Source: Planctomycetota bacterium
GTDB taxonomy: Bacteria; Planctomycetota; Phycisphaerae; Phycisphaerales; UBA1924
DNA length: 51,542 bases
Reading direction: 5' to 3'
Assembly: GCA_024276195.1 (NCBI GenBank)
Contig: JAJRXR010000005.1
Location: 1 to 51,542 of the forward strand
Each line of letters opens with the position of its first letter. Within the stretch, counting starts at the first letter, position 1. Positions 2,429-15,955 of this stretch are shown in pieces. The notes beneath the pieces are model-generated. The model was not told where the DNA came from. It did no database searches and was given only the letters and a program-made list of their open reading frames with translations. A program made the position numbers and the translations under genes.

Positions 2429-4057
2429 CTACGGGATGATCGGCGCATAGACGGTGATGGTCTGGTTGACAGGGATGTCGTCGAGGCGGACGAGCGTGCC
2501 GTCGTGCCACTCGACCTCGAGGGTGACGCTCTGGGCAAAGGCGAGCCCGAAGTGGGCGGAGTGCTCGCTGTTGCAGAGGTACTGGCCCGCGATATCGATG
2601 TAGCGGAGCTGGGTGGCGTCGGGGGTGATGGCGCGGACGCGGGCGCCGATGCCGTGGGGCGCGAGATCGGACCGAGCGGAGGTATCGATAAAGACGCGCA
2701 GCCAGTTGACGCCCGAGGCCTTGGTGTCGAAGATGTCGTTGCGGAGCAGCGTGAGGCGCCCGGCGTTGGCGATGATGAGGATGTCCTGATCGCCGTCGTT
2801 GTCGAAGTCGAGTCGCGCCAGCGCTCGACCCTGCAAGAAGTGGTGGAACCCGGTCTGTGCGGCGACGTCAGTAAAGAACGCGGCGCCGTCGTTGAGGAAG
2901 AGCTTCGACGCCTCTGCGAGGAAGTCGGGTTCGGAGGCCCAGCCGTTGGTCTCGGCGAGGTCGAGGTCTCCGTCATGGTCGATATCGACCGCGACGGTTC
3001 CCCAGCCCCACCCGCCGTCGTCGGTTCCTGTGGGGGCTGAGACTTCGGTAAAGATGTGAGATCCGAGGTTCATGTAGAGCTTGTTGCCCTCGCTGAGGCG
3101 CGGGGGCGTGGGGTCGTAGATTGAGGAGACGTACCAGTCGATGAGTCCGTCGTTGTCGAGGTCTCCCTGGGTGTTGCCCATGCCGAACTCGTCGTGCCCA
3201 ACGCCGGCGCTGGCGGTGTGGTCGGAGAACGTGCCGTCGGTGTTGTTGACGAGGTACTTGCTGGTGCCGAAATCCGCGACCCAGAGGAGTTCGGGGTACC
3301 AGTCTGCGTCAGTATCGACGAAGCTGGGGGAGAAGCCGCGGACGGTGGTCATGTCGGCGTCGATCATGGCGGTGGCGTCGGTGAATGAGGTGAGCTCGCC
3401 CTCGGCGGCGCCGTCGTTCCGGAAGAGGCGGTTGCCGCTGGGTGGTGAGAACCATCCCGCGACGGCGAGGTCGAGGTCGCCGTCGAGGTCGTAATCGCCC
3501 CATGCGGATCCGAAGCCGTCAGCGATGGGGCCGATCGAGTTGACGCCGACTTGGGCGGCGACGTCGGTGAACGAGAACATTCCTGCGGCGTCGGGGCCGT
3601 TGTTCTGGTAGAGGATGCACTTGCCCGGCTCTCCGACGGTTCCGGGCGTGCCGTGGCTTGTGATGTAGATGTCGATATAGCCGTCGTCGTTGAAGTCGGC
3701 GGCGCAGGCGCCGGAGCCGATGTGGGTGGCGCCGACGCCCCAGGCGACACCCTGCTCGGAGAACGTGCCGTCGGTGTTGTTGATGAAGAGCATATCTCGC
3801 TCCCCGCCTCCACCGAGGAAGAAGATGTCCTGCCAGCCGTCGTTGTTGAAGTCCCCGATGGCGCCGCCCCCGGTCATCGGGTCTGCGCGCGGGAGGACAC
3901 CGGCAGGCATGACGTGGTCAACGTCGAGCCCGGCCTGGACAGTGATGTCGGTGAAGGCGGGGCGGCGGGTGGGCCTGGCGACATCCGCCGTCTGACCCGC
4001 GGTCGTCCCTGTGAGACACGCTGCGGTTGCGAGCACGATCGTGGCGGCACGCTGCAT
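2429..4057 (-). CDS. Secreted FG-GAP/VCBS repeat protein with C-terminal ASPIC/UnbV domain
   Basis: 542 residues from the ATG at 4057, which begins a signal peptide (MQRAATIVLATAACLTGTTA). It carries at least five FG-GAP/VCBS blades with calcium-loop motifs of the type DFNNDGWQDI, DFNDDGYIDI, DYDLDGDLDL, DLDNDGLIDW, DIDHDGDLDL and DFDNDGDQDI, which together build a beta-propeller. The C-terminal 110 residues match the ASPIC/UnbV module (GIGARVRAI, then VEWHDGT and the closing V-N-Q-T). Such proteins are abundant in Planctomycetota and are exported; the ligand is unknown and an extracellular binding role is inferred. It is convergent with the phosphohexomutase, with 32 bp between stops. The same frame stays open far upstream of 4057, but that part has no signal peptide or family match. 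Confidence 0.9.
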   Translation of the reverse strand: MQRAATIVLATAACLTGTTAGQTADVARPTRRPAFTDITVQAGLDVDHVMPAGVLPRADPMTGGGAIGDFNNDGWQDIFFLGGGGERDMLFINNTDGTFSEQGVAWGVGATHIGSGACAADFNDDGYIDIYITSHGTPGTVGEPGKCILYQNNGPDAAGMFSFTDVAAQVGVNSIGPIADGFGSAWGDYDLDGDLDLAVAGWFSPPSGNRLFRNDGAAEGELTSFTDATAMIDADMTTVRGFSPSFVDTDADWYPELLWVADFGTSKYLVNNTDGTFSDHTASAGVGHDEFGMGNTQGDLDNDGLIDWYVSSIYDPTPPRLSEGNKLYMNLGSHIFTEVSAPTGTDDGGWGWGTVAVDIDHDGDLDLAETNGWASEPDFLAEASKLFLNDGAAFFTDVAAQTGFHHFLQGRALARLDFDNDGDQDILIIANAGRLTLLRNDIFDTKASGVNWLRVFIDTSARSDLAPHGIGARVRAITPDATQLRYIDIAGQYLCNSEHSAHFGLAFAQSVTLEVEWHDGTLVRLDDIPVNQTITVYAPIIP

Positions 4058-4207
4058 GTGTTGATCCCCCAGGCCACAGCGGCTCCCCCCCCGGGGATCC
4101 TGAGCGGCCACGCACAGGATACCGGGATCTGTTCGAGATCCAAAAGCAAGACCCGGGAAGAGGCGATGTCTCTGCGTGAGGGGGCGTAGCGGCCCTAGAG
4201 TGGGGGC

Positions 4208-4468
4208 ATGAGGACTTCTGTGGAGCTGGGCGAGGGTGTTCGGGTGCGGATCACGCAGCAGGTGCCGCGCCTGAGCGGGACGATGAGCACGAGCGTCGAG
4301 GGCGAGATCCTGCGCGTCGGGCAGCAGAAGACGGGGTCGTGGTTCGCCCACAGCAAGGACAAGAAGCTCTGGATCGACCGCGTCGAGCTGCGCAAGGACG
4401 ACGGCGAGATCGCCTTTGTCAACCTCGACCAGAACTCGCACGTTGAGATTCTCAGCGGCGAGGACTGA
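4208..4468 (+). CDS. Small conserved-looking protein, unknown function
   Basis: 86 residues, no signal peptide or membrane segment, strongly charged. The pattern of alternating beta-strand-like stretches (VRVRITQQV, STSVEGEILRV, KLWIDRVELRK, EIAFVNLDQ) suggests a small SH3-like or OB-like barrel; that is inference from composition only. It stands alone between the divergent propeller gene and the phage-derived block and is closed by a strong intrinsic terminator at 4495-4525, so it is its own transcription unit. I do not recognise the family. The terminator and the high GC at third codon positions support it as a real gene. Confidence 0.7.
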   Translation: MRTSVELGEGVRVRITQQVPRLSGTMSTSVEGEILRVGQQKTGSWFAHSKDKKLWIDRVELRKDDGEIAFVNLDQNSHVEILSGED

Positions 4469-4494
4469 TCGGCGGTTCGATCTGGCTTGGACGG

Positions 4495-4525
4495 CCCCCG
4501 CGGTTGCGGGGGTTGTTTCGTTTTT
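4495..4525 (+). terminator. Intrinsic terminator after the 86-residue gene
   Basis: A perfect 7-bp stem, CCCCCGC / GCGGGGG with loop GGTT (4495-4512), is followed by TTGTTTCGTTTTT. It lies 27 bp after the stop at 4468. It insulates the phage-derived block from upstream transcription. The remaining sequence to 4782 holds no convincing gene. Confidence 0.85.
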
Positions 4526-4781
4526 GGGCAGGGCGGGGTTTGTGCGCACGGGATGGTCTTGGGCGCGGGGAGCGCACAGAGAAATCTGAAGTTTTCTAGC
4601 CGTTGGTTCGGGCTGGGGTTGCGCGCCGGGCGAGGGGCGCCAGGGCGCTGGTGCGCGCGCACGGAGTGGGATCGGGGAAGCAGAGGTGAGGGCGGCGAGC
4701 AGTGAACGCCGCGGGACGATCAGGCAGTTGGTAGCGCCGAGGCCACACAGGACCGGCGCGGGAAAGTGGAGGGGGCGGCCC

Positions 4782-6293
4782 ATGTCCTACCGGCTCGACG
4801 TGTTTTCTGGGGTAGGCCTCGATGAGGCAAGGCTGGCGCTCGCGATCGACGGGCGGCGGGCGCGGGAGCTGCCGCGCCTGGAGAAGCTGTGGAGCTACTT
4901 CCGGAATCCGCTCGAGCCGGTGGGGGTGGGCGGCGCAGCTGCGGGATCGTGGCGGGGGTGGTATCGCCAGGCGCAGGAGGTCGGCCTGCCCGACCGGGTG
5001 ACCGGGAGGCGGCGCGACCCGGGCCTTGATGACCGGGCCTCGGGGCGGCGCGAGGTCGTGATCGAAAACGACATCGCGTGGCGCGTGCAGCTCATGGTGG
5101 ACTTCCTGTTTGGTAAGTCGATCCGGGTCCTGAGCACGAGCGAGGACGAGGCGACACGGGAGCGCGTCGAGAAGGTGATCGAGGCGGTGTGGGAGGCGTC
5201 GGGCGGGATCGCGATGCTGCAGGACGCGGCGACGCTCGGGCATGTGTACGGGCACGTGGATCTGGTGGTTCGGATCGACGAGGAGCGGTTGCTGGGCGCC
5301 GCTGCCGGCGATATCGCGGCGATCGCGGACGCGATCCGGATCGAGCCGATCGACGCGACGCGCGGGGCGCCGATCGTCAACCGAGATGATTACCGGGAGC
5401 TCGACGCGTACGCGATCTGTGTTGAGCGCGAGGCGCCGGGCGCGAGCGCCGAACAGGAGCCGGAGCGCCGGATGCGTCTGCGCGGGGGGCGGCGCTCGAG
5501 CGGGCGGGCGCAGGCGGCGCGGGAGCGCGTGCTGAGCCTGGAGCTGATCGGGCCGGGCGTGCGCCAGGTGTACGAGGACGGGATGCTGGTGGAGGAGTCG
5601 CGGAGCGTGCTGCTGCCCGAGACGCTGCCGATCGTGCATGTGCAGAACGTGAGCCAGCCGTTCCGGTACTCGGGGCTGAGCGAGGTGGAGGCGTTGATCC
5701 CGCTGCAGGACGAGCTGAACACGAGGCTGAGCGATCGGGCGAGCCGGGTGACGATGCAGAGCTTCCAGATGTATCTGGCGAAGGGGATCGAGGGGTTTGA
5801 CCGGGCGCCGGTGGGGCCTGGGGCGCTGTGGCAGACGGACAACATGGAGGCGTCGGTGCAGGCGTTCGGGGGTGATTCTGCGAGCCCGAGCGAGACGGCG
5901 CATATTTCGGAGATCCGCGAGGCGATGGACAAGATCAGCTCGGCGCCGCCGCTGGCGGGGGGGGTGTTGCGCGGGCGGGTCGGGAACCTGTCGAGCGCGA
6001 CGGCGCTGCGCGTCACGCTGATCGGGCTGCTGTCGAAGACGGAGCGCAAGCGGGTGACGTACGGGCGCGGGATCACGCGGGCGAGCCGGGTTGTGCTCGA
6101 GGCGCTCGACGCTGCGGGTGTTGTGCGCACGGGGGCGGGGGACCGGGGCGTGCGTGTGGCGTGGTCTGACCCGCTCCCGAGCGAGGAGCGGGACGACGTG
6201 GCGGCGGCCCGGGCGAAGGTGGAGCTGGGCGTGCCCGAGGAGCGGGTGCTGAGTGAACTGGGGTATGAGGCGACGGATCCGTCGATCCGCTGA
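4782..6293 (+). CDS. Phage portal protein (SPP1 gp6-like)
   Basis: 503 residues, normal for SPP1-type portals. Visible landmarks: the N-terminal wing with NDIAWRVQLMVDFLFGKSIRV (residues about 95-120), the long conserved stem region LSEVEALIPLQDELNTRLSD near residue 305, the PPLAGGVLRGRVGNLSSATAL crown segment near 400, and a C-terminal clip/crown with AWSDPLPSEERDDVAAA. Portals form the dodecameric DNA channel at one capsid vertex. ATG 4782 is chosen for the GGAAAGTGGAGGGGG site just upstream; an upstream GTG in frame (4686) lacks support. It heads the block. No terminase gene precedes it, which is abnormal. GC and codon use match the neighbouring chromosomal genes. Confidence 0.85.
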   Translation: MSYRLDVFSGVGLDEARLALAIDGRRARELPRLEKLWSYFRNPLEPVGVGGAAAGSWRGWYRQAQEVGLPDRVTGRRRDPGLDDRASGRREVVIENDIAWRVQLMVDFLFGKSIRVLSTSEDEATRERVEKVIEAVWEASGGIAMLQDAATLGHVYGHVDLVVRIDEERLLGAAAGDIAAIADAIRIEPIDATRGAPIVNRDDYRELDAYAICVEREAPGASAEQEPERRMRLRGGRRSSGRAQAARERVLSLELIGPGVRQVYEDGMLVEESRSVLLPETLPIVHVQNVSQPFRYSGLSEVEALIPLQDELNTRLSDRASRVTMQSFQMYLAKGIEGFDRAPVGPGALWQTDNMEASVQAFGGDSASPSETAHISEIREAMDKISSAPPLAGGVLRGRVGNLSSATALRVTLIGLLSKTERKRVTYGRGITRASRVVLEALDAAGVVRTGAGDRGVRVAWSDPLPSEERDDVAAARAKVELGVPEERVLSELGYEATDPSIR

Positions 6294-6324
6294 GCGGGTT
6301 GGGGGCGCCAGAAAGGAGCGAGGG

Positions 6325-6843
6325 ATGAAGGGTGGACAGGCCAATGAGCCGCTCGGCGGCGCGGGCGGGGGCGAGGGCGAGGGCGGGGGGGCGGATGTGA
6401 GCGCGGAGCTGCTGATGCAGGCCCGGGCGGAGGAGGCCGAGTCGAAGTGCGCCGAGCAGGAGGCGAGGATCAGCGAGCTCGAGGCGAAGCTGGTCGCGGC
6501 GCGGGAGGCGACCGACGCGAGCGAGCGCCGGCGAGAGATCGAGCGGGCGCTGGGCGAGTCGGACACGGTGGACGTGGAGACGGCGCGGTTGCTGACGGAG
6601 GCGGCGGTGGCGCAGATGGACGAGCCGGACGTGGCGTTGGCGGTGGATGAGCTGCGCCGGCGCAAGCCGTTCTTGTTCCACGGTGAACCGGCGGCGGCGC
6701 AGATGCGCGGGATCGCGATGCGCCCGGCGCAGGAGATGATGATCGGCGATGGCGCGCTCGACGGGCTGGCCGACGAGGCGAGGCAGACGGGAGATCGGCG
6801 GGTGCTGCTGCGATATCTGCGACAGCGTCGGTGCGGGTACTGA
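6325..6843 (+). CDS. Probable capsid scaffolding / head assembly protein
   Basis: 172 residues between portal and major capsid genes, the usual place for a scaffolding protein. Residues 1-28 are Gly/Glu-rich and disordered; residues 30-75 form a predicted coiled coil (LLMQARAEEAESKCAEQEAR followed by ISELEAKLVAAREA); the C-terminal third is basic and ends in arginines and RRCGY. A coiled coil with a basic capsid-binding tail is typical of scaffolds. Sequence identity to a named family is not evident, so the call rests on position and composition. ATG 6325 follows AAAGGAG. No protease active site (Ser-His or ClpP-like) is visible in it or nearby. Confidence 0.6.
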   Translation: MKGGQANEPLGGAGGGEGEGGGADVSAELLMQARAEEAESKCAEQEARISELEAKLVAAREATDASERRREIERALGESDTVDVETARLLTEAAVAQMDEPDVALAVDELRRRKPFLFHGEPAAAQMRGIAMRPAQEMMIGDGALDGLADEARQTGDRRVLLRYLRQRRCGY

Positions 6844-6905
6844 GCGGGCTTGAAGGGGTTTCGAGCGGGTTTGTGGGTTGAGTTGAGCAGAGCAAAGGAG
6901 AGACG

Positions 6906-8081
6906 ATGGCTTTTACAGGCAAGGCGACGTACGGGGCGGGGGTGGACCTGCCCGAGCTGGTTGAGGACGTGTCGGATGTGATCGGGATTGTGAGCCCGCA
7001 CGAGACGGCGCTGCTGGATCATCTGGGAGATCCGAAGCGGGCGGCGACCTCGACGGTTCACGAGTGGATCGAGGACACGCTGGTGTCGAACACGGGGATG
7101 CTGAATCAGACGGTGTTCACGCCGAACCCGGAGTCGGCGCCGGCGCTGACGCTCGATGATGTTTCCGGGTTCCGGGTGGGGGATCTGGTGCGACCGGCGG
7201 GGTCGAGCGAGGTGATGCTGGTGACGACGGTGGACCCGGGGACGGAGACGCTGGTGGTCACGCGAGGGTACGGCGGGACAGTCAGCGCGACGCTGGCGGA
7301 CAACATGGAGCTGACGATCCTGGGCAACGCGGCGCTCGAGGGCGACGGGGCGCCGGACGCGAGGTTCACGGACCGGGTACGCCAGCGGAATTTTACCCAG
7401 ATCTTCACGGCGAGCGTGGATGTTTCGGGGTCGATGCAGGCGGCGCGGGCGTACGGGATTGACGACGAGGTTGATTACCAGAAGCAGGAGCGGATGCGCG
7501 AGCTGCTGCGTGATCTTGAGAACTGCGTGATCAACGGCGCCGCCCCGAGCGCCAACGAGCAGGGGACGAGCGGGGTTCGGCGTTCGCTCGATGGGATGAT
7601 CCACTCGATCGGGACCAACCAGTTTGAGCCCGGGCTCGGGGGGATCCCGATCGGGGATGGCGCGGGATCGGATGAGCTGAACGAGTCGGTGCTCAACGCG
7701 GCGCTCAAGCAGATCTGGGATCAGTCGTCGGGCGGGGTGGACACGATCGTCGTGGGCGGGGCGCAGAAGCGCCGGATCAACGGGTTCGCGTCGGGCTCGC
7801 GGGCGTACCTGCCCGAGGACACGGCGTTCCGAGATCTGGTGAGCGTGTACGAGAGCGATTTCGGGGTGTGCAAGGTTGTGATGAGCCGGTGGATGCCGGC
7901 GGACTCGCTGCTGCTGCTGGATTCGACGCGGGTGCAGGTGATGCCGTTGCAGGGGCGGAGCTTCCACTTCAAGCCCCTGGCGTCGGATGGTGATTCGATC
8001 CGCGGGCAGGTGATCGGGGAGTACACGCTGGAGTTCAAGAACGAGAACGCGCACGGGCTGATCAGCGGGCTGGGCCTGTGA
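6906..8081 (+). CDS. Major capsid protein, SU10-like / DUF5309 family
   Basis: 391 residues. The N-terminus reads MAFTGKATYGAGVDLPEL, then VEDVSDVIGIVSPHETALLD, which matches the SU10-type major capsid family (formerly DUF5309; HK97 fold). Residues 75-145 hold an inserted beta-rich domain (FRVGDLVRPAGSSEVMLVTT, TLVVTRGYGGT). Conserved features follow: RQRNFTQIFTASVDVSG near residue 160, DEVDYQKQERMRELLRDLE (E-loop and spine helix) near 190, and a C-terminal A-domain with VVGGAQKRRINGF and LPLQGRSFHFKPL-type strands. It would build the icosahedral shell. A strong AAAGGAGAG site precedes the ATG. There is no obvious cleavable delta domain, in keeping with the absence of a protease gene. Confidence 0.85.
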   Translation: MAFTGKATYGAGVDLPELVEDVSDVIGIVSPHETALLDHLGDPKRAATSTVHEWIEDTLVSNTGMLNQTVFTPNPESAPALTLDDVSGFRVGDLVRPAGSSEVMLVTTVDPGTETLVVTRGYGGTVSATLADNMELTILGNAALEGDGAPDARFTDRVRQRNFTQIFTASVDVSGSMQAARAYGIDDEVDYQKQERMRELLRDLENCVINGAAPSANEQGTSGVRRSLDGMIHSIGTNQFEPGLGGIPIGDGAGSDELNESVLNAALKQIWDQSSGGVDTIVVGGAQKRRINGFASGSRAYLPEDTAFRDLVSVYESDFGVCKVVMSRWMPADSLLLLDSTRVQVMPLQGRSFHFKPLASDGDSIRGQVIGEYTLEFKNENAHGLISGLGL

Positions 8082-8122
8082 CGGGTTGATGGGGTAGGGC
8101 GAGTCGGCGGGGAGAGGGAGAC

Positions 8123-8256
8123 ACCCCTCACCCCGGCCCTCTCCCCAAAGGGGGAGAGGGAGGAAGACGAAGACCCCTCACCCCGGCCCTCTCCCCAAAG
8201 GGGAGAGGGAGGAAGACCTTTCACCCCGGGTCTTTTCTGGGGGAGAGGGAGGAAGA
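8123..8256. repeat. Three tandem copies of the C-rich/G-rich palindromic repeat
   Basis: Copies at about 8123-8166, 8173-8216 and 8219-8256, all with the CCCCGGCCCTCTCCCC core or a decayed form. They fill the 304-bp gap between the capsid gene and the next gene. A copy of the GGCGGGACGCCTGTCCCAC palindrome follows at about 8349-8371. The gap holds no gene. Confidence 0.9.
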
Positions 8257-8385
8257 AGGTTGGCGTTGGGTTCGGGGGGACCTTGCGTGCCCGCGCCGGG
8301 GGGAGACCGGCGGCGCGGGTTTGGGGAATGGGGAGTGAAAGGCATGACAGGCGGGACGCCTGTCCCACTGTGGGGGGAGGGTGAG

Positions 8386-9021
8386 ATGTTTGTCACGGAC
8401 AGGGATCTGCTGGTTTTGGAGCCGGGGGTGTTTCGGGATGTGGTGTGGCTCGGGCAGCGCCTGGTGCGGGGTGTCGGTTCGGTGAGCGGGACGACGCTGA
8501 CGATGACGAGCCAGGACACGGGATTTGATGACGCGGGGGTCGGGGCTGGGAGCGTGGTGGTGATCGACGGCGTGGCGCTCGAGGTGCTCTCGCGGACGTC
8601 GGGCAGCGAGCTGGAGGTGTCGCGCTTGCGCGAGAGCGTTTCGGGCGCGGGGGTCGGGGCCGGATCGATCGTGAACAAGGTGGTGGATGTCTCGACGTTC
8701 GGGGCGCAGGCGGCGTTGGTGCATGCGCAGGTGCTGCGGATGCTGGGGCTGGAGGCGTCGGGGAGTGCGCTCGATGCGCCGGGCGAGGACGACGTGGTGA
8801 ACCCGCAGGACTTTTCGCTGGTCGAGGCGCTCGGGACATTGCATGTGGTGTATGCGTCGGCGAGTGCTGCGGGCGCGGGGGATCTTGCGGGCAAGGCTGC
8901 GATGTACCGCGAGCGGTTCGCGGCGGAACGCCAGCGCGTTGATGCGCGGATCGATCTTGATGGGGACGGGGTTGCTGACGCGACGCGGAGGATGAATGTG
9001 GTGCAGTTTGCGCGGGCGTGA
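8386..9021 (+). CDS. Phage-block gene: probable head-tail connector/neck protein
   Basis: 211 residues directly after the major capsid gene, where neck and adaptor proteins normally lie. Residues 1-85 are beta-rich (VWLGQRLVRGVGSVSGTTLT, then GSVVVIDGVALEVLSRTSG, a pattern also seen as repeated short barrels in neck proteins). Residues 90-190 are largely helical, with a Q-A-A-L-V-H-A-Q-V-L-R-M-L-G helix and a late D-L-D-G-D-G-V-A-D loop that resembles a calcium-binding or dockerin-like turn. No family is recognised with confidence. ATG 8386 is preferred because GGGGGGAGGG sits just upstream. Opening the frame earlier, at 8344 or 8260, would translate the dispersed repeat. Confidence 0.6.
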   Translation: MFVTDRDLLVLEPGVFRDVVWLGQRLVRGVGSVSGTTLTMTSQDTGFDDAGVGAGSVVVIDGVALEVLSRTSGSELEVSRLRESVSGAGVGAGSIVNKVVDVSTFGAQAALVHAQVLRMLGLEASGSALDAPGEDDVVNPQDFSLVEALGTLHVVYASASAAGAGDLAGKAAMYRERFAAERQRVDARIDLDGDGVADATRRMNVVQFARA

Positions 9022-9027
9022 TGGGGG

Positions 9028-9092
9028 TTCGAGCCGGTTGGAAACCGGCTCCACCAGGGCATTGAGCCGGTTGAAAACCGGGTTTACCAGGA
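9028..9092. repeat. Pair of GAGCCGGTTGGAAACCGGCTCC repeats, second copy decayed
   Basis: Copies at about 9028-9056 and 9063-9092. The core GCCGGTTGGAAACCGGC is a palindrome; the second copy reads GCCGGTTGAAAACCGG. A matching copy lies at 19962-19996. They occupy the gap between two genes of the phage-derived block. Confidence 0.85.
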
Positions 9093-9105
9093 GGGGAGGC
9101 GGCAG

Positions 9106-9510
9106 ATGCTGGTGTTGAATCCGAGGCAGGTTGAGTTTGGGGCGAGCACGTGGACGAACGTGACGAGCGTGTCGGTCGGGCGGTCGGCCAGGCACGTGCT
9201 GACGGAGTGGTCCGACAGCGGGCCTTACACGGTTCTGGTGGATGTTCCCGAGCAGCTGGTGACGGTGCGCGTGGTGCAGGAGATGCTCGCTGATGACATG
9301 GACGAGGTGCGCCCGAGCGAGACCGGGACGCTGACGTTTGTGACGGGGCAGAACTCGTCGGACGCGGGGACGCGGCTGGTGACGGTTGAGTGCGTGGCGA
9401 AATCGGTGAGCTACGAGACGTCGGTATCGCGCGGATCGCGTCGGTTTATTGAGCTGATCGCGGTGTCGAGCGATGGGGTGGCAGATCCGGTGGACGTGAG
9501 CGCGGCTTGA
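9106..9510 (+). CDS. Phage-block gene: probable small tail/neck structural protein
   Basis: 134 residues, almost all predicted beta strand (TWTNVTSVSVGRSARHVL, YTVLVDVPEQLVTVRVVQEM, GTLTFVTGQNSSDAGTRLV, KSVSYETSVSRGSRRFIEL). This composition fits a tail-tube or tail-terminator protein, which assemble as rings of beta-sandwiches. The evidence is context and secondary-structure pattern, not a recognised family. ATG 9106 has a strong AGGAGGGGAGG site. It is followed after 75 bp, which contain a dispersed repeat, by another small gene of the block. GC matches the chromosome. Confidence 0.55.
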   Translation: MLVLNPRQVEFGASTWTNVTSVSVGRSARHVLTEWSDSGPYTVLVDVPEQLVTVRVVQEMLADDMDEVRPSETGTLTFVTGQNSSDAGTRLVTVECVAKSVSYETSVSRGSRRFIELIAVSSDGVADPVDVSAA

Positions 9511-9536
9511 GGCGGGCGCACAGGGGAGGAGGGGAG

Positions 9537-9580
9537 CCCCTCACCCCGGCCCTCTCCCCAGAGGGGAGAGGGAGGAGGAG
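9537..9580. repeat. C-rich/G-rich palindromic repeat between two phage-block genes
   Basis: One well-preserved copy of the CCCCGGCCCTCTCCCC...GGGGAGAGGGAGGAGG hairpin. Its purine-rich right arm sits just before the ATG at 9586 and supplies what looks like the Shine-Dalgarno sequence of that gene. Confidence 0.85.
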
Positions 9581-9585
9581 GAGTG

Positions 9586-9978
9586 ATGGCGAGTTCGTTC
9601 AAGGGGTTGGACCTGTTCGGGTCGGGGGCGCACCGGTTCGCGCTGGGGCGACAGGGGTTGTACGCGGTGCCGTTGTCGGTGGTGGGGGGGAACGCGACGC
9701 TGGCGGGATCGAGCTGGTTCGGGGATCTGGAGCTGGAGGTGCATGTGCGCGGGCGTTTGGTGGCGGCGAGCGAGTCGGCGCTGTGGACGCTGCGCGACGC
9801 GGTGAGCGCGCAGTCGGCGAGCACGGTTTCGCCCATACCCGGGGTGCTGATTGATCTGCACGGGCGGACGTGGGCGTCGATGTCGTTCTATCGGTACGAG
9901 GAGGAGGACCACATCGACCGGGGGCGGGTGTGGTCGGTGGGGTATCTGGCGCGGTTCAGGCGGTTCATCGGGACGTGA
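9586..9978 (+). CDS. Phage-block gene: small structural-type protein of unknown role
   Basis: 130 residues from ATG 9586 (a GTG one codon earlier is possible). Beta-rich with aromatic content: SWFGDLELEVHVRGRLVA in the middle and GVLIDLHGRTWASMSFYRYE near the C-terminus, closing VGYLARFRRFIGT. No signal peptide or membrane helix. Position after the candidate tail/neck gene and before a small membrane protein suggests a tail-completion or baseplate-like part, but I do not recognise the family. The ribosome-binding region is the purine-rich arm of a dispersed repeat, so expression may depend on that insertion. Confidence 0.55.
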   Translation: MASSFKGLDLFGSGAHRFALGRQGLYAVPLSVVGGNATLAGSSWFGDLELEVHVRGRLVAASESALWTLRDAVSAQSASTVSPIPGVLIDLHGRTWASMSFYRYEEEDHIDRGRVWSVGYLARFRRFIGT

Positions 9979-9988
9979 GCGTATTTGG

Positions 9989-10052
9989 AGGGGGCGGTTT
10001 CCAGCCGCCTCGCATTGCGTTCGGTTGCGCAGCAGTCGTGCGGCTGGAAGCC
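9989..10052. repeat. Decayed GGTTTCCAGCCGCC / CGGCTGGAAGCC inverted pair
   Basis: Two facing copies of a TGGAAGCC-type repeat related to those at 10914-10978, 19915-19945 and 25116-25145. They lie in the gap before the small membrane protein gene. Confidence 0.6.
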
Positions 10053-10073
10053 ACACGCTCCGGGAGGCGGTTG

Positions 10074-10352
10074 ATGATGGAGGCGGAAGTGGCGGCGGTG
10101 CTGGCGCAGTTCGGGGTGGCGGGGCTGATCGGGTGGATGTGGATGACCGAACGCCGGGCGTCGTCGGCGCGGGAGAAGCAGATCGGCGAGTTGCACGACC
10201 GGATCTTGCGTGAGCGGACGGAGCTGGAGGTGCTGGTGACGGTGGTGAAAGAAAACACGAGGGCGCTGTCGGCCCTGGAGACGGGGCAAAGGGGGCTGGT
10301 GGCGCTGCTGAGCAGGATGGCGCCCGGGCGCCAGGAGGGGGCGGAGGGTTAG
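10074..10352 (+). CDS. Small membrane protein with coiled coil, holin-like organisation
   Basis: 92 residues from the first of two adjacent ATGs (10074, 10077), preceded by GGGAGGCGG. One membrane segment, VAAVLAQFGVAGLIGWMWM (residues about 5-23), is followed by a charged amphipathic helix (EKQIGELHDRILRERTELEV, then TRALSALETGQRGLVALL) likely to form a coiled coil on one side of the membrane. Small one-helix proteins of this design are common near phage lysis or tail genes and are often annotated as holin or putative membrane protein. The lysis role is inference: no endolysin is present. It is the last gene that clearly belongs with the phage-derived block. Confidence 0.6.
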   Translation: MMEAEVAAVLAQFGVAGLIGWMWMTERRASSAREKQIGELHDRILRERTELEVLVTVVKENTRALSALETGQRGLVALLSRMAPGRQEGAEG

Positions 10353-10361
10353 ACTCTGGGT

Positions 10362-10892
10362 ATGAGGCTGACTTTCCGATCGGTGCTGGTGGGTTCGGCG
10401 GTGTTGTGTGTGATGCTGGGCGGGTGCGCCAGGCCCGGGTCAACGCCCAAGGCGGCGATGCCGTCGGCGGGGCAGTTGACCGGGGGGGCGTTTGCGCCGG
10501 CGAGCATGCGCGTGTACCCGTTGACGCACATCGAGGCGGAGGGTGAGGATGGGGCGAGGCTGGTCTTGCACCTGGAGCTGCGCGACGCGTGGGGGGACAC
10601 GGTCAAGGGTGTGGGGAGCTTGCAGGTGCAGCTGCTGCGCGGCGGAGACCTTGGCGGGGGCGGGCGCGACGAGCGGATGTGGGAGGTGGACATGCGCGAC
10701 CCGGAGGTGAACGCGCTGTACTACGACCCGGCGACGCGGACGTACCGGGTGCAGCTGCGCGACCTGCCACGCTGGGCGGTGGAGCAGAGCAGGCAGCGGG
10801 GCGGGCGGGTGCGGGTGCTGGCGGTGCTGACGACGCCGGCGCCGGACGGGAGCGAGCGGTTCCTGCGCGATGAGTACACGATTCAGAACTAA
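10362..10892 (+). CDS. Lipoprotein of unknown function
   Basis: 176 residues. The N-terminus MRLTFRSVLVGSAVLCVMLGGC is a lipoprotein signal peptide with lipobox LGGC, so Cys22 should be lipidated. The mature part has beta-strand stretches (GARLVLHLELRDAWGDTVKG, SLQVQLLRGGDL, TYRVQLRDLPRW, VRVLAVLTTPAPDGSERF), a pattern of a single Ig-like or transthyretin-like domain. It begins 9 bp after the small membrane protein, so the two are probably cotranscribed; its Shine-Dalgarno (CAGGAGGGGG) lies inside that gene. Either a chromosomal gene at the end of the block or an envelope partner of it. Family not recognised. Confidence 0.75.
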   Translation: MRLTFRSVLVGSAVLCVMLGGCARPGSTPKAAMPSAGQLTGGAFAPASMRVYPLTHIEAEGEDGARLVLHLELRDAWGDTVKGVGSLQVQLLRGGDLGGGGRDERMWEVDMRDPEVNALYYDPATRTYRVQLRDLPRWAVEQSRQRGGRVRVLAVLTTPAPDGSERFLRDEYTIQN

Positions 10893-10913
10893 GGGGTGTT
10901 CCGGGGGTGAGTT

Positions 10914-10978
10914 GCGTACGGGCTGGAAGCCCATACCACCAGACCTGTTTGTGTACGGGCTGGAAGCCCATACCACCG
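10914..10978. repeat. Two direct copies of ACGGGCTGGAAGCCCATACC
   Basis: Copies at about 10917-10942 and 10953-10978, containing the short palindrome GGGCTGGAAGCCC. They fill the space between the convergent lipoprotein and amidohydrolase genes. Related copies at 25116-25145 read GGGCGGGCTGGAAGCCCGCC. Confidence 0.85.
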
Positions 10979-15300: not shown

Positions 15301-15955
15301 GGTAGAGGGCCATGACGCCCATGTGGCTGGTGGGGTACTCGCCGCTGGACCAGCCGGATTTATCGAAGGCGAGGGTGTGGTAGGCGTCGGTGTCATAGAT
15401 ATGGGCTTCGCCCAGGGAGCGGTCGCTGTGGTCGGTGTCGAGCGAGACCAGGGCGGACAGCCCGCGGAAGACGCCGCCCTTGGGCGCGACAGCGGCGGTC
15501 GCGAAGCCCATGGCGCGGAGGTCCTTCTTGGCGTCCTCGCTGAGCCCGGGGCCAGAGAGGACGGAGCGCTGGGGGGTGACGCGCGAGTTCCAGTGAAGCC
15601 CGGGCGAGGCGGCGTCGGGCGTGGGGGTGTCAACCTCGACGAAGGCGTCGATGAAGGCGGCGTAGACGTGCAGGCCGGTCGCGTCCCAGATGCGGGCGCC
15701 GTCGGGGGGGGCGCCCGCGCCGACGGAGACGATGACGCCGTCGCGGAATACCACGGTCGCGCGTTCGAGCGTCTGGCCCGGGCGGGTGTGGACGGTGGCG
15801 CCGACGATGGCGTGCCAGCTCGGGTCGGCGTGCTTGGGGCCGTTGGCTGGGGGCGCGAGCGGGGAGTCGCTCGTGGGCTGGGCGAGCGACGGGCTGGTGA
15901 AAGCGGTCGCCAGCGCCATCAGGGCGCCGACCGCGACGGAACGTCGTGTGGGCAT
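12353..15955 (-). CDS. Secreted tandem amidohydrolase, degenerate N-domain plus intact C-domain
   Basis: 1200 residues. The ATG at 15955 starts a signal peptide (RRSVAVGALMALATAFTSPS). Domain 1 (about 40-440) is an amidohydrolase fold without the metal motif: AAFIDAFVEVD stands where IDxHxH is expected, and it closes with PASILGMDTTLGAVAPGFAA. A beta-rich linker (about 460-680) contains two similar repeats beginning GDWNVTIDNA and GDWTLTMGES. Domain 2 (about 720-1200) is complete, with HVTPGLIDAHSHTG, RLVHCHSY, GSFQHGLE and NPAIMLGVNDRIGSLEAGKD. Likely a periplasmic metal-dependent hydrolase of imidazolonepropionase/dipeptidase type; substrate unknown. GC drops within domain 2 around 13150-13400. 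Confidence 0.85.
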   Translation of the reverse strand: MPTRRSVAVGALMALATAFTSPSLAQPTSDSPLAPPANGPKHADPSWHAIVGATVHTRPGQTLERATVVFRDGVIVSVGAGAPPDGARIWDATGLHVYAAFIDAFVEVDTPTPDAASPGLHWNSRVTPQRSVLSGPGLSEDAKKDLRAMGFATAAVAPKGGVFRGLSALVSLDTDHSDRSLGEAHIYDTDAYHTLAFDKSGWSSGEYPTSHMGVMALYRQTLLDADWQEGADKNAINALTPLYTADAPLCFVTTHELETLLARRIQNELNTGHILLVGSGSEFRRLDAISTLDASLIVPLRFPSKPDVSSIGKADATSLDRLMAWEQAPTNARRLHDAGLRVALTSSNLPKGQKFRTNLRSAIEHGLSEDDALAMLTTAPASILGMDTTLGAVAPGFAASLIIADGPIFDKDTKILDVWTHGARHMVNPPKGDDLAGDWNVTIDNALSARLEIDDDNAITLYVSDAAGKESAHKGANASIDDSAISFSVIVPALAGDSPIIFSAVHTRGELMGAMMRPRGAPAQWRAVRARPGQPDPEPSAFEGDWTLTMGESQTTIKLSVEGETITGFFEDKTIEARDIAFDGDRVSFTMDDPFGDDRVFTITCVLIDGEIVGKVLSPDDDSYAMTGARTQDEPKHADIPEILGAPFGSYTMPALPERPDYVVISGATVWTCGPDGILRPEDTDTLVVLKDGLIDYVGPEKSLRFPADATNVVRIDAEGKHVTPGLIDAHSHTGLFRFGVNESGQAVTSECWIGDSLDPGYINWYRQLAGGVTTANLLHGSANPIGGQSQIVKVRWGAQDAEAMFMDGAKPGIKFALGENVKQSNWGDNKTTRYPQTRMGVETIIRDRFQAAKEYAERHQRARQALQDMDHLLDSNLVPDERRQAVLELAKEFFSEGGDGGARAPDGRTKYQPFTPSEGALAYKELSQRLFPRRNLELEALAQILAGDRLVHCHSYRQDEILMLCRIAEDFGFKIGSFQHGLETYKVAETVREHALGASIFSDWWAYKLEVQDAIPYAGPINHEAGLLTSFNSDSDELARRMNLEAAKAVKYSSGRVSPEEALKFVTINPAIMLGVNDRIGSLEAGKDADVVIWSGDPLSSFSRPESVWIDGREYFSLERDKAHRSRIAGERERLIKKILAIPADDKSKDADNKDEGEVDIYMVDSPPFAFDDLTTDPYMRPGDCGCSASNHNLQFNDR

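Follow-up and report, generated by a model that had tools for sequence, protein, structure and literature searches.

A phage-derived capsid block of Phycisphaerae chromosomes as the probable structural half of a two-locus, gene-transfer-agent-like element

For what does a bacterial chromosome keep a set of phage head genes that the expected terminase does not precede? The question is raised by a stretch of 51,542 nucleotides from a Planctomycetota bacterium of the Phycisphaerae (assembly GCA_024276195.1, contig JAJRXR010000005.1; the whole stretch is called the window in the following), in which genes for a portal, a scaffold-like protein and a major capsid protein (MCP) form a block. The original prediction, made from the sequence alone, had offered a split gene transfer agent (GTA), a phage-derived compartment or extracellular particle, and a slowly decaying prophage. 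The first of these options is the one favoured by the evidence: the block is probably the structural half of a two-locus, GTA-like element that is inherited vertically in Phycisphaerae and packages host DNA. Genomes and loci compared carry G and L numbers and families f numbers; G000 is the window's own genome.

Two loci and their conservation

A large terminase is encoded in the same genome at a second conserved locus (G000:C81:24184-25629), where a search with a five-sequence alignment matched it at E 8e-219. The terminase had been predicted to be absent, which holds for the window's contig, where none was found before the portal gene, but not for the genome, whose contig 81 carries one. An unlinked terminase was to be looked for; because capsid block and terminase lie on different contigs of G000, the two loci can be called separate, not unlinked. 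The Pfam profile Terminase_6N, tried as a probe, overlooked this gene and matched in 16 of 61 genomes (12 above cut-off); its weak matches in relatives led to the conserved locus, and the five-sequence alignment then found the terminase of G000. The large terminase is strongly matched in 50 of the 61 genomes, and a 51st match is weak. The locus runs from a helix-turn-helix (HTH) protein resembling sigma region 4 through an ABC-ATPase with a GNAT domain (two genes in some genomes) and small genes to the large terminase. An S24-type, CI/LexA-like repressor stands beside it in 18 of 20 loci, the two misses being loci fetched without that flank, and in the 17 loci where repressor and HTH gene were both matched they are divergent. 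Both Walker motifs and the nuclease aspartates were checked (GKT, DE, D and DH..D) and are kept in 37 of 37 terminases; the nuclease part matches the solved large terminase 5oe8 (E 4e-7), and matches to Pfam are borderline (Terminase_6C, E 1e-4). A nine-row alignment shows four invariant cysteines in the stretch that joins ATPase and nuclease domains (C247, C253, C261 and C267 of its first row; compare L171:12107-13633), possibly a zinc site.

Capsid and terminase genes tend to occur together. Among 298 genomes drawn from the class, 124 have both, 7 the capsid gene alone, 26 the terminase alone and 141 neither, with 32 terminase matches of E 2e-26 or weaker and the capsid match of G252 counted as absent; a second table, without ten intermediate matches, gives 124, 7, 16 and 151. 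Kinship among the genomes inflates this co-occurrence. Within family f2, G211 alone is listed with a match to either gene and it has both, so that the association is visible inside one family, despite relatedness. The distance between the loci varies widely. In f14 the terminase locus continues into portal, scaffold and capsid genes (with two small genes between in G068), and in single genomes of f11, f18, f20, f23 and f24 the two loci lie about 1 to 13 kb apart; the distance is about 166 kb in G112 (f20) and, where the loci share one contig in the window's family, between about 10 and 300 kb (read by eye in 20 genomes; about 72 kb in G001). The terminase also adjoins the portal gene in the viral contigs L189 and L190 (terminase recognised by eye) and precedes it by about 3 kb in L193. 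Because the genes are adjacent in several families and near each other in viral contigs, the linked form is likely to be ancestral and the split form derived.

The capsid gene was found in 48 of the 61 genomes, the own one included. Forty-one copies are full length, 40 of these are free of in-frame stops, and outside the own genome they are 59-87% identical. The remaining seven are split by an insert (G005, G020), broken and rearranged with parts on opposite strands (G048), spread over two contigs (G007), cut by a contig break (G052), deleted (G025) or truncated (G045). In the class draw 132 of the 298 genomes have a capsid match, usually in single copy, and in a draw of 294 genomes from the phylum 46 have one, four of them weak (E 2e-6 to 8e-5); 22 strong matches of the phylum draw lie outside the class, mostly in family f49. 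We further compared 80 loci from named records, the best 80 of 153 relatives, some of which stop at a contig border: the block genes found in them keep their order and the strand of the capsid gene. The search for the same block in related genomes, which had been proposed as a check, is thereby answered in the affirmative. The record titles of four of these loci do not mention Planctomycetota and give Cyanobacteria (L055), Vicinamibacteraceae (L082), Leptolyngbya (L101) or just 'bacterium' (L100); the bins are most probably mislabelled. In G025 (L136) and G045 (L137), where the capsid gene is deleted or reduced to about 50 codons, the neighbouring genes are still open.

The ratio of nonsynonymous to synonymous substitution rates (dN/dS, NG86) stayed under 1 in all eight pairs tried, whichever block gene was compared. 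Host control genes of the same pairs range from 0.08 to 0.83; since this range is similar, NG86 alone cannot separate the block from host genes, and most weight falls on the low-dS pair L098-L102, with 0.17 for portal, 0.13 for scaffold, 0.14 for capsid, 0.27 for g4, 0.16 for g7 and 0.27 for g8. NG86 dS seems saturated or biased in GC-rich pairs, YN00 failed for most of them and maximum-likelihood (ML) dS was often unbounded. Genes of the terminase locus give 0.12-0.35. The block is thus maintained by purifying selection, and the prediction that it is maintained and not a remnant agrees with the conserved order, with dN/dS below 1, portal and capsid included, and with its presence in 48 of 61 genomes.

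Capsid and terminase seem to have been inherited with the host and to be distinct from their phage homologues. Twenty-three of 24 chosen genomes had capsid, terminase and RpoB (G002 gave no RpoB match); careful trees of the three proteins have 10-12 of 20 splits in common and no conflict in which both sides have support of at least 95. Path-length matrices of quick trees correlate at 0.80-0.86, a value reached in 0 of 999 permutations. A quick tree, for which 34 of the 80 retained IMG/VR loci were used, unites the 24 chromosomal capsids tested in a single clade (SH-aLRT 100), apart from 31 homologues of viral contigs; three further viral contigs (L187, L188, L236) are placed within it. Two of these look like phages by eye and each have an orphan capsid gene (L187:7023-8183 and L188:5970-7124; 61% and 54% identity to that of the window), beside which no portal was recognised; the third close viral contig looks chromosomal by eye. 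A single-sequence scan of IMG/VR had found no capsid relatives, and the idea that viruses lack this capsid was abandoned when an alignment-based scan found 84, of which 80 were kept. Phage records contain 168 capsid relatives, all below 60% identity (24-33% among the 20 matches listed). Terminase relatives were found in 1 of 50,697 phage records (23%) and in two IMG/VR contigs (34 and 31%); L190 and L193 seem by eye to carry further ones overlooked by those scans.

Shared DNA word and anatomy of the block

The two loci share a short DNA word. In an unbiased count of 8-mers upstream of portal genes, limited to those called portals that exceed 470 aa and are sufficiently flanked (53 of 86 sequences), GTGCGCAC ranks first by its ratio to shuffled sequences, with 23 occurrences against 0.75 in shuffles and 1.2 expected from control intergenics. 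TGTGCGC occurs in 33 of these 53 regions and in 12 of 17 intergenics between repressor and HTH gene, against 24 of 353 controls; the sequences are related, so that significance is overstated. The five terminase-locus intergenics without it are those of G026 (f1) and the four of f4, f5 and f6. An exact 14-base palindrome was also considered as the link and proved too strict; because it is present in 4 of 61 genomes, the link between the loci rests on the shorter word. About 15 of the 53 regions (by eye; e.g. L042, L044 and L045) have two TTTGTGCGCACAAA-like sites 110-114 bases apart, A/T-rich between them in some, which suggests a looped regulatory complex. At the terminase locus of several genomes, a -35/-10 pair points towards the HTH gene and an inverted repeat, GTTCrCT-N-AGyGAAC, lies over its presumed start (both by eye); this repeat is likely to be the operator of the repressor.

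The block in the window comprises eight genes in one direction, all with open frames (Table 1). The predicted start stands, while the predicted end at 10,352 leaves out g8. Family scores make the identity of portal and capsid certain and bear out the predicted phage order; for scaffold, holin and lipoprotein, weak scores, position and features seen by eye weakly suggest the labels. Scans against Pfam and PHROGs assign no family to g4, g5 or g6; g4 has no significant PDB match either. An AlphaFold2 model of g5 is all-beta (pLDDT 83.7, pTM 0.76) and would fit a neck or tube protein. The small neck or tail candidates of the prediction remain candidates in g4 to g6, but g7 looks weakly holin-like and not tail-like: a longer frame of it matches phrog_1625 ('bacteriocin production or immunity') at E 9e-4, behind a phrog of unknown function at E 1e-4. 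The family scans gave no match for g8.

Table 1. Features of the capsid block and its upstream flank in the window (loci: number with the gene among the 80 compared).
Feature	Position	Strand	Loci	Remarks
Conserved chromosomal gene, 86 aa	4208..4468	+	34/80	5' of portal; in some loci on the opposite strand or away from the portal
Terminator-like hairpin	4489..4518	+		3' of the 86-aa gene; 1 found in 4050-4800 against 0.4 expected
TTTGTGCGCAC, candidate regulatory site	4539..4549	+		Single exact copy in the window; similar kind at the terminase locus
Portal protein, 503 aa	4782..6293	+	73/80	PF05133 E 8e-14; phrog_64 E 3e-16
Scaffold-like protein, 172 aa	6325..6843	+	67/80	Weak, phrog_2303 E 0.026; between portal and capsid gene
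SU10-type major capsid protein, 391 aa	6906..8081	+	80/80	PF17236 E 6e-85
g4, head-tail adaptor candidate, 211 aa	8386..9021	+	76/80	By position only
g5, all-beta neck/tail candidate, 134 aa	9106..9510	+	64/80
g6, neck/tail candidate, 130 aa	9586..9978	+	64/80
g7, holin-like, 92 aa	10074..10352	+	61/80	Hydrophobic short N-terminal segment, then charged helix-like part (by eye, alignment)
g8, lipoprotein-like, 176 aa	10362..10892	+	48/80	Signal-like N terminus with Cys (by eye); last block gene

The small host-like gene with its own terminator that had been seen before the portal is the 86-aa gene with its hairpin. It often stands beside the block, not always, and is probably not part of it; its best PHROGs match has E 0.07, and Pfam gave none. 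As had been noted, neither tape measure, integrase, lysin nor protease was recognised in the block by family scans or by eye, and the scans revealed no sheath or contractile gene. Family scans and inspection by eye showed no integrase or replication gene in block or terminase locus; the limits of this statement are the ABC-GNAT protein and, in some families, a gene resembling parB. GC content is 0.689 over 4782-10892 against 0.677 in the remaining window and codon-position GC resembles that of the neighbours, in line with the chromosomal composition predicted; the repeats predicted in the gaps lie at 8113-8213, 8343-8368, 9031-9094, 9526-9576 and 10912-10977, and have further copies in the window or stand as adjacent pairs. 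In several families a gene that by eye resembles a phosphohexomutase lies close to the head block, before or after it (window:645-2396; L184:8712-9950; clusters of G106 and G198), which may reflect chance, old neighbourhood or a link to surface sugars.

A gene transfer agent among other readings

Phage-derived structural genes, among them a large terminase (TerL) and an HK97-type MCP, are kept in the host chromosome. We propose that the host lineage acquired a phage head module of terminase, portal, scaffold and capsid at an early stage of the class Phycisphaerae or even earlier. The terminase genes of the window's family would have come to lie apart from the block, sharing a locus with a likely switch, the S24 repressor facing the HTH operon. 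Loss or cleavage of the repressor would allow the HTH protein to be made, which might act at the TGTGCGC-containing sites before both operons; capsids would then assemble on the scaffold, the terminase would fill them with host DNA through the portal, and the holin-like protein and the lipoprotein may help to lyse the cell, from which the DNA could be transferred.

Several observations weigh against a GTA. Particles, packaged DNA and transfer have not been observed; what the genomes show is anatomy, conservation, co-occurrence of the two loci, selection and the shared word, and the named genomes are mostly metagenome bins. No lysin was identified. Tail candidates are few in the window's family, f1, with g5 and g6 only, and no tail gene was recognised in the blocks of L082 and L088 (f4), G123 (f18) and G106 (f20). 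Of the 298 class genomes, 26 have the terminase without the capsid and 7 the reverse, and the block is broken in some lineages (G025, G045). TGTGCGC is missing from 20 of the 53 portal-upstream regions and 5 of the 17 regions at the terminase locus, and the exact palindrome is absent from G000. Two estimates of dN/dS are high, 0.96 by NG86 for g7 in the pair window-L031 (91 codons; ML 0.30) and 0.83 by ML for the portal in L064-L071 (NG86 0.30). Finally, a small terminase was not found in G000, where a short open reading frame takes its place; 11 of 25 loci gave a match to TerS-like proteins, so named for their position, and one of these proteins weakly matches HTH_26 (E 0.036). Known GTAs are described, in the part of the source available, as having a small terminase without detectable DNA-binding domain, and as none was detected in G000, packaging without sequence preference is plausible here too, as argued there for known agents (PMC11841831).

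The capsid gene is itself a target of mobile elements. Elements with a large serine recombinase sit in it at about codons 57-64 in G005 (L135), G020 (L133:7619-18576), G211 (L311) and G061 (L313), the capsid parts lying in order and 7 to 11.5 kb apart; in the rearranged G048 (L130) the N-terminal part ends at codon 62 beside such a recombinase. These five genomes belong to four families, and all but G061 share a gene set of recombinase, HARE-HTH protein, AAA protein, capsid-domain protein of about 630 aa, sigma-like protein and, by eye, restriction-type cargo; no terminase or portal was seen among the element genes. In G020 the C-terminal half of the ~630-aa protein is a phage capsid domain (PF25209, E 1e-36), and the other three are 52-53% identical. 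Its gene occurs in 28 of the 61 genomes, often in many copies and with up to 99% identity between genera, so that the agent's capsid gene is one site among several for it; such mobility stands in direct contrast to the pattern of the block. The elements are possibly capsid-bearing satellites that disrupt the agent. Another capsid gene is apparently interrupted near codon 325, with its parts about 11 kb apart (G247:C103:3495-4451 and 15345-15536). In its widest form the proposal would be an independent GTA of Planctomycetota (Phycisphaerae and some outside families), with motor and switch located away from the capsid genes and coupled to them through a common DNA site, a tail reduced or lost in several families, and a capsid gene repeatedly targeted by serine-recombinase elements, several with their own capsid gene and possibly parasites; for this combination we see the chances as evenly balanced.

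The main rival of gene delivery is a domesticated, tail-poor particle that also packages DNA, host DNA then being released by lysis, for instance as biofilm DNA, as a nutrient or in the killing of neighbours. The blocks of L082, L088, G123 and G106 would suit such a particle, since no tail gene was recognised in them and, besides portal, scaffold and capsid, they contain g4 or a gene like it, one small gene of membrane type and one lipoprotein-like gene; so would the two small genes at the tail position in the window's family. Yet G044 (f5) retains a protein resembling a tail collar (phrog_31611, E 7e-6) and one of 898 aa whose lectin-like domain narrowly misses the Pfam cut-off, and in G068 (f14), G198 (f24) and G268 (f23) both the collar-like protein and a protein of 523 aa have relatives; moreover, the absence of tail genes is one from the blocks, f1 and f4 not having been searched for them elsewhere. 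We regard this particle as unlikely, if clearly ahead of the remaining alternatives. A DNA-free particle, be it an encapsulin-like compartment or an extracellular injection device, could explain why a host retains an HK97-type capsid and why no lysin is seen, but a portal, a scaffold and a terminase with its ATPase and nuclease residues are co-inherited with that capsid and no sheath or contractile gene was recognised in the block. The compartment that had been offered as an option is weakened because such a terminase is co-inherited, a shell without portal or terminase is not what the genomes contain, and we consider this explanation highly improbable.

Slightly less probable still is a slowly decaying prophage remnant, or a set of independent prophages. 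The broken copies of G025 and G045 fit it, and so do prophage-like capsid genes, about 30% identical, that have a terminase match nearby in G039, G047 and G055. The block itself, however, is mostly single-copy and constant in order, with open frames, dN/dS below 1, no integrase recognised in it and trees without well-supported conflict with RpoB; nor are the integrase and the contiguous packaging and tail modules of an intact prophage seen. Decay is thereby refuted for most lineages that have the gene, and what stands of this option is that some lost or broke it. Of equally slight probability is a helper or defence module, in which the capsid set would act on incoming phages or satellites and not package host DNA. 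Such a role could account for the insertion of serine-recombinase elements into the capsid gene (four of the five elements have a capsid-domain gene) and for the orphan capsid gene, a member of the chromosomal clade, in two phage-like viral contigs, but the set has its own regulator and terminase, and the inserts break the capsid gene.

Relation to known systems

If the GTA-like reading is true, Planctomycetota hold a further origin of GTAs, old, widespread and independently built. Linked and split forms side by side would be a natural experiment in the dismantling and rewiring of agents, and the capsid-targeting elements a view of possible GTA parasites. It would bear on gene exchange among Planctomycetota, and capsid genes in bins would not necessarily be contamination or prophage.

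Encapsulins are likewise HK97-type shells kept by the host. To our knowledge they come without portal, scaffold and terminase, whereas all three are present here. Closer in layout are the Caudoviricetes with SU10-type capsids, such as Sporosarcina phage Lietuvens and the IMG/VR contigs L189-L193, which have the same order of terminase, portal, scaffold and capsid (the contig terminases recognised by eye) and capsids 31-42% identical; unlike the block, they have the terminase near the portal and a long tail module, and 31 viral contigs fall into a separate clade.

The functional GTAs listed in 2022 are, in the part of the review available, those of alphaproteobacteria, one deltaproteobacterium, one methanogenic archaeon and a spirochete (PMC9662315). 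No GTA of Planctomycetes or Phycisphaerae was reported in the available text of the open-access literature searched, preprints and subscription papers lying outside its scope; in the accessible part of PMC12213060 the term 'gene transfer agent' stands in the reference list. A profile of the capsid gave three matches in the PDB at E 0.01, none named as a gene transfer agent. The system had been put forward as undescribed: GTAs as a kind are known, but the lineage, the capsid type, the separate terminase and the switch, as read from the sequences, appear undescribed in the open-access papers searched. BaGTA of Bartonella, whose needed genes extend over a wide region, and BhGTA of Brachyspira, which likely has several loci (PMC9662315, as far as available), have independent phage origins, as would the element here; they belong to other phyla, and for them gene transfer was shown experimentally, against genes alone here.

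The closest parallel is RcGTA with the other Rhodogtaviriformidae of Alphaproteobacteria, including CcGTA of Caulobacter, in which phage head genes with TerL and an HK97-type capsid are inherited with the host as they are here, and RcGTA-type genes, too, lie at more than one place (PMC9662315, in the part available). In CcGTA, according to the accessible text, gafYZ is under the control of the repressor RogA, a sigma-like HTH is predicted in GafZ, and GafY acts with IHF at the gafYZ and structural promoters (PMC11150451). The switch proposed here would follow a similar logic of repressor, sigma-like HTH protein and action at both promoters, a likeness of layout. Unlike RcGTA, the element of Phycisphaerae belongs to another host phylum and combines an SU10-type capsid, an SPP1-type portal and an S24-type repressor with a terminase that, in the window's family, lies apart from the capsid genes.

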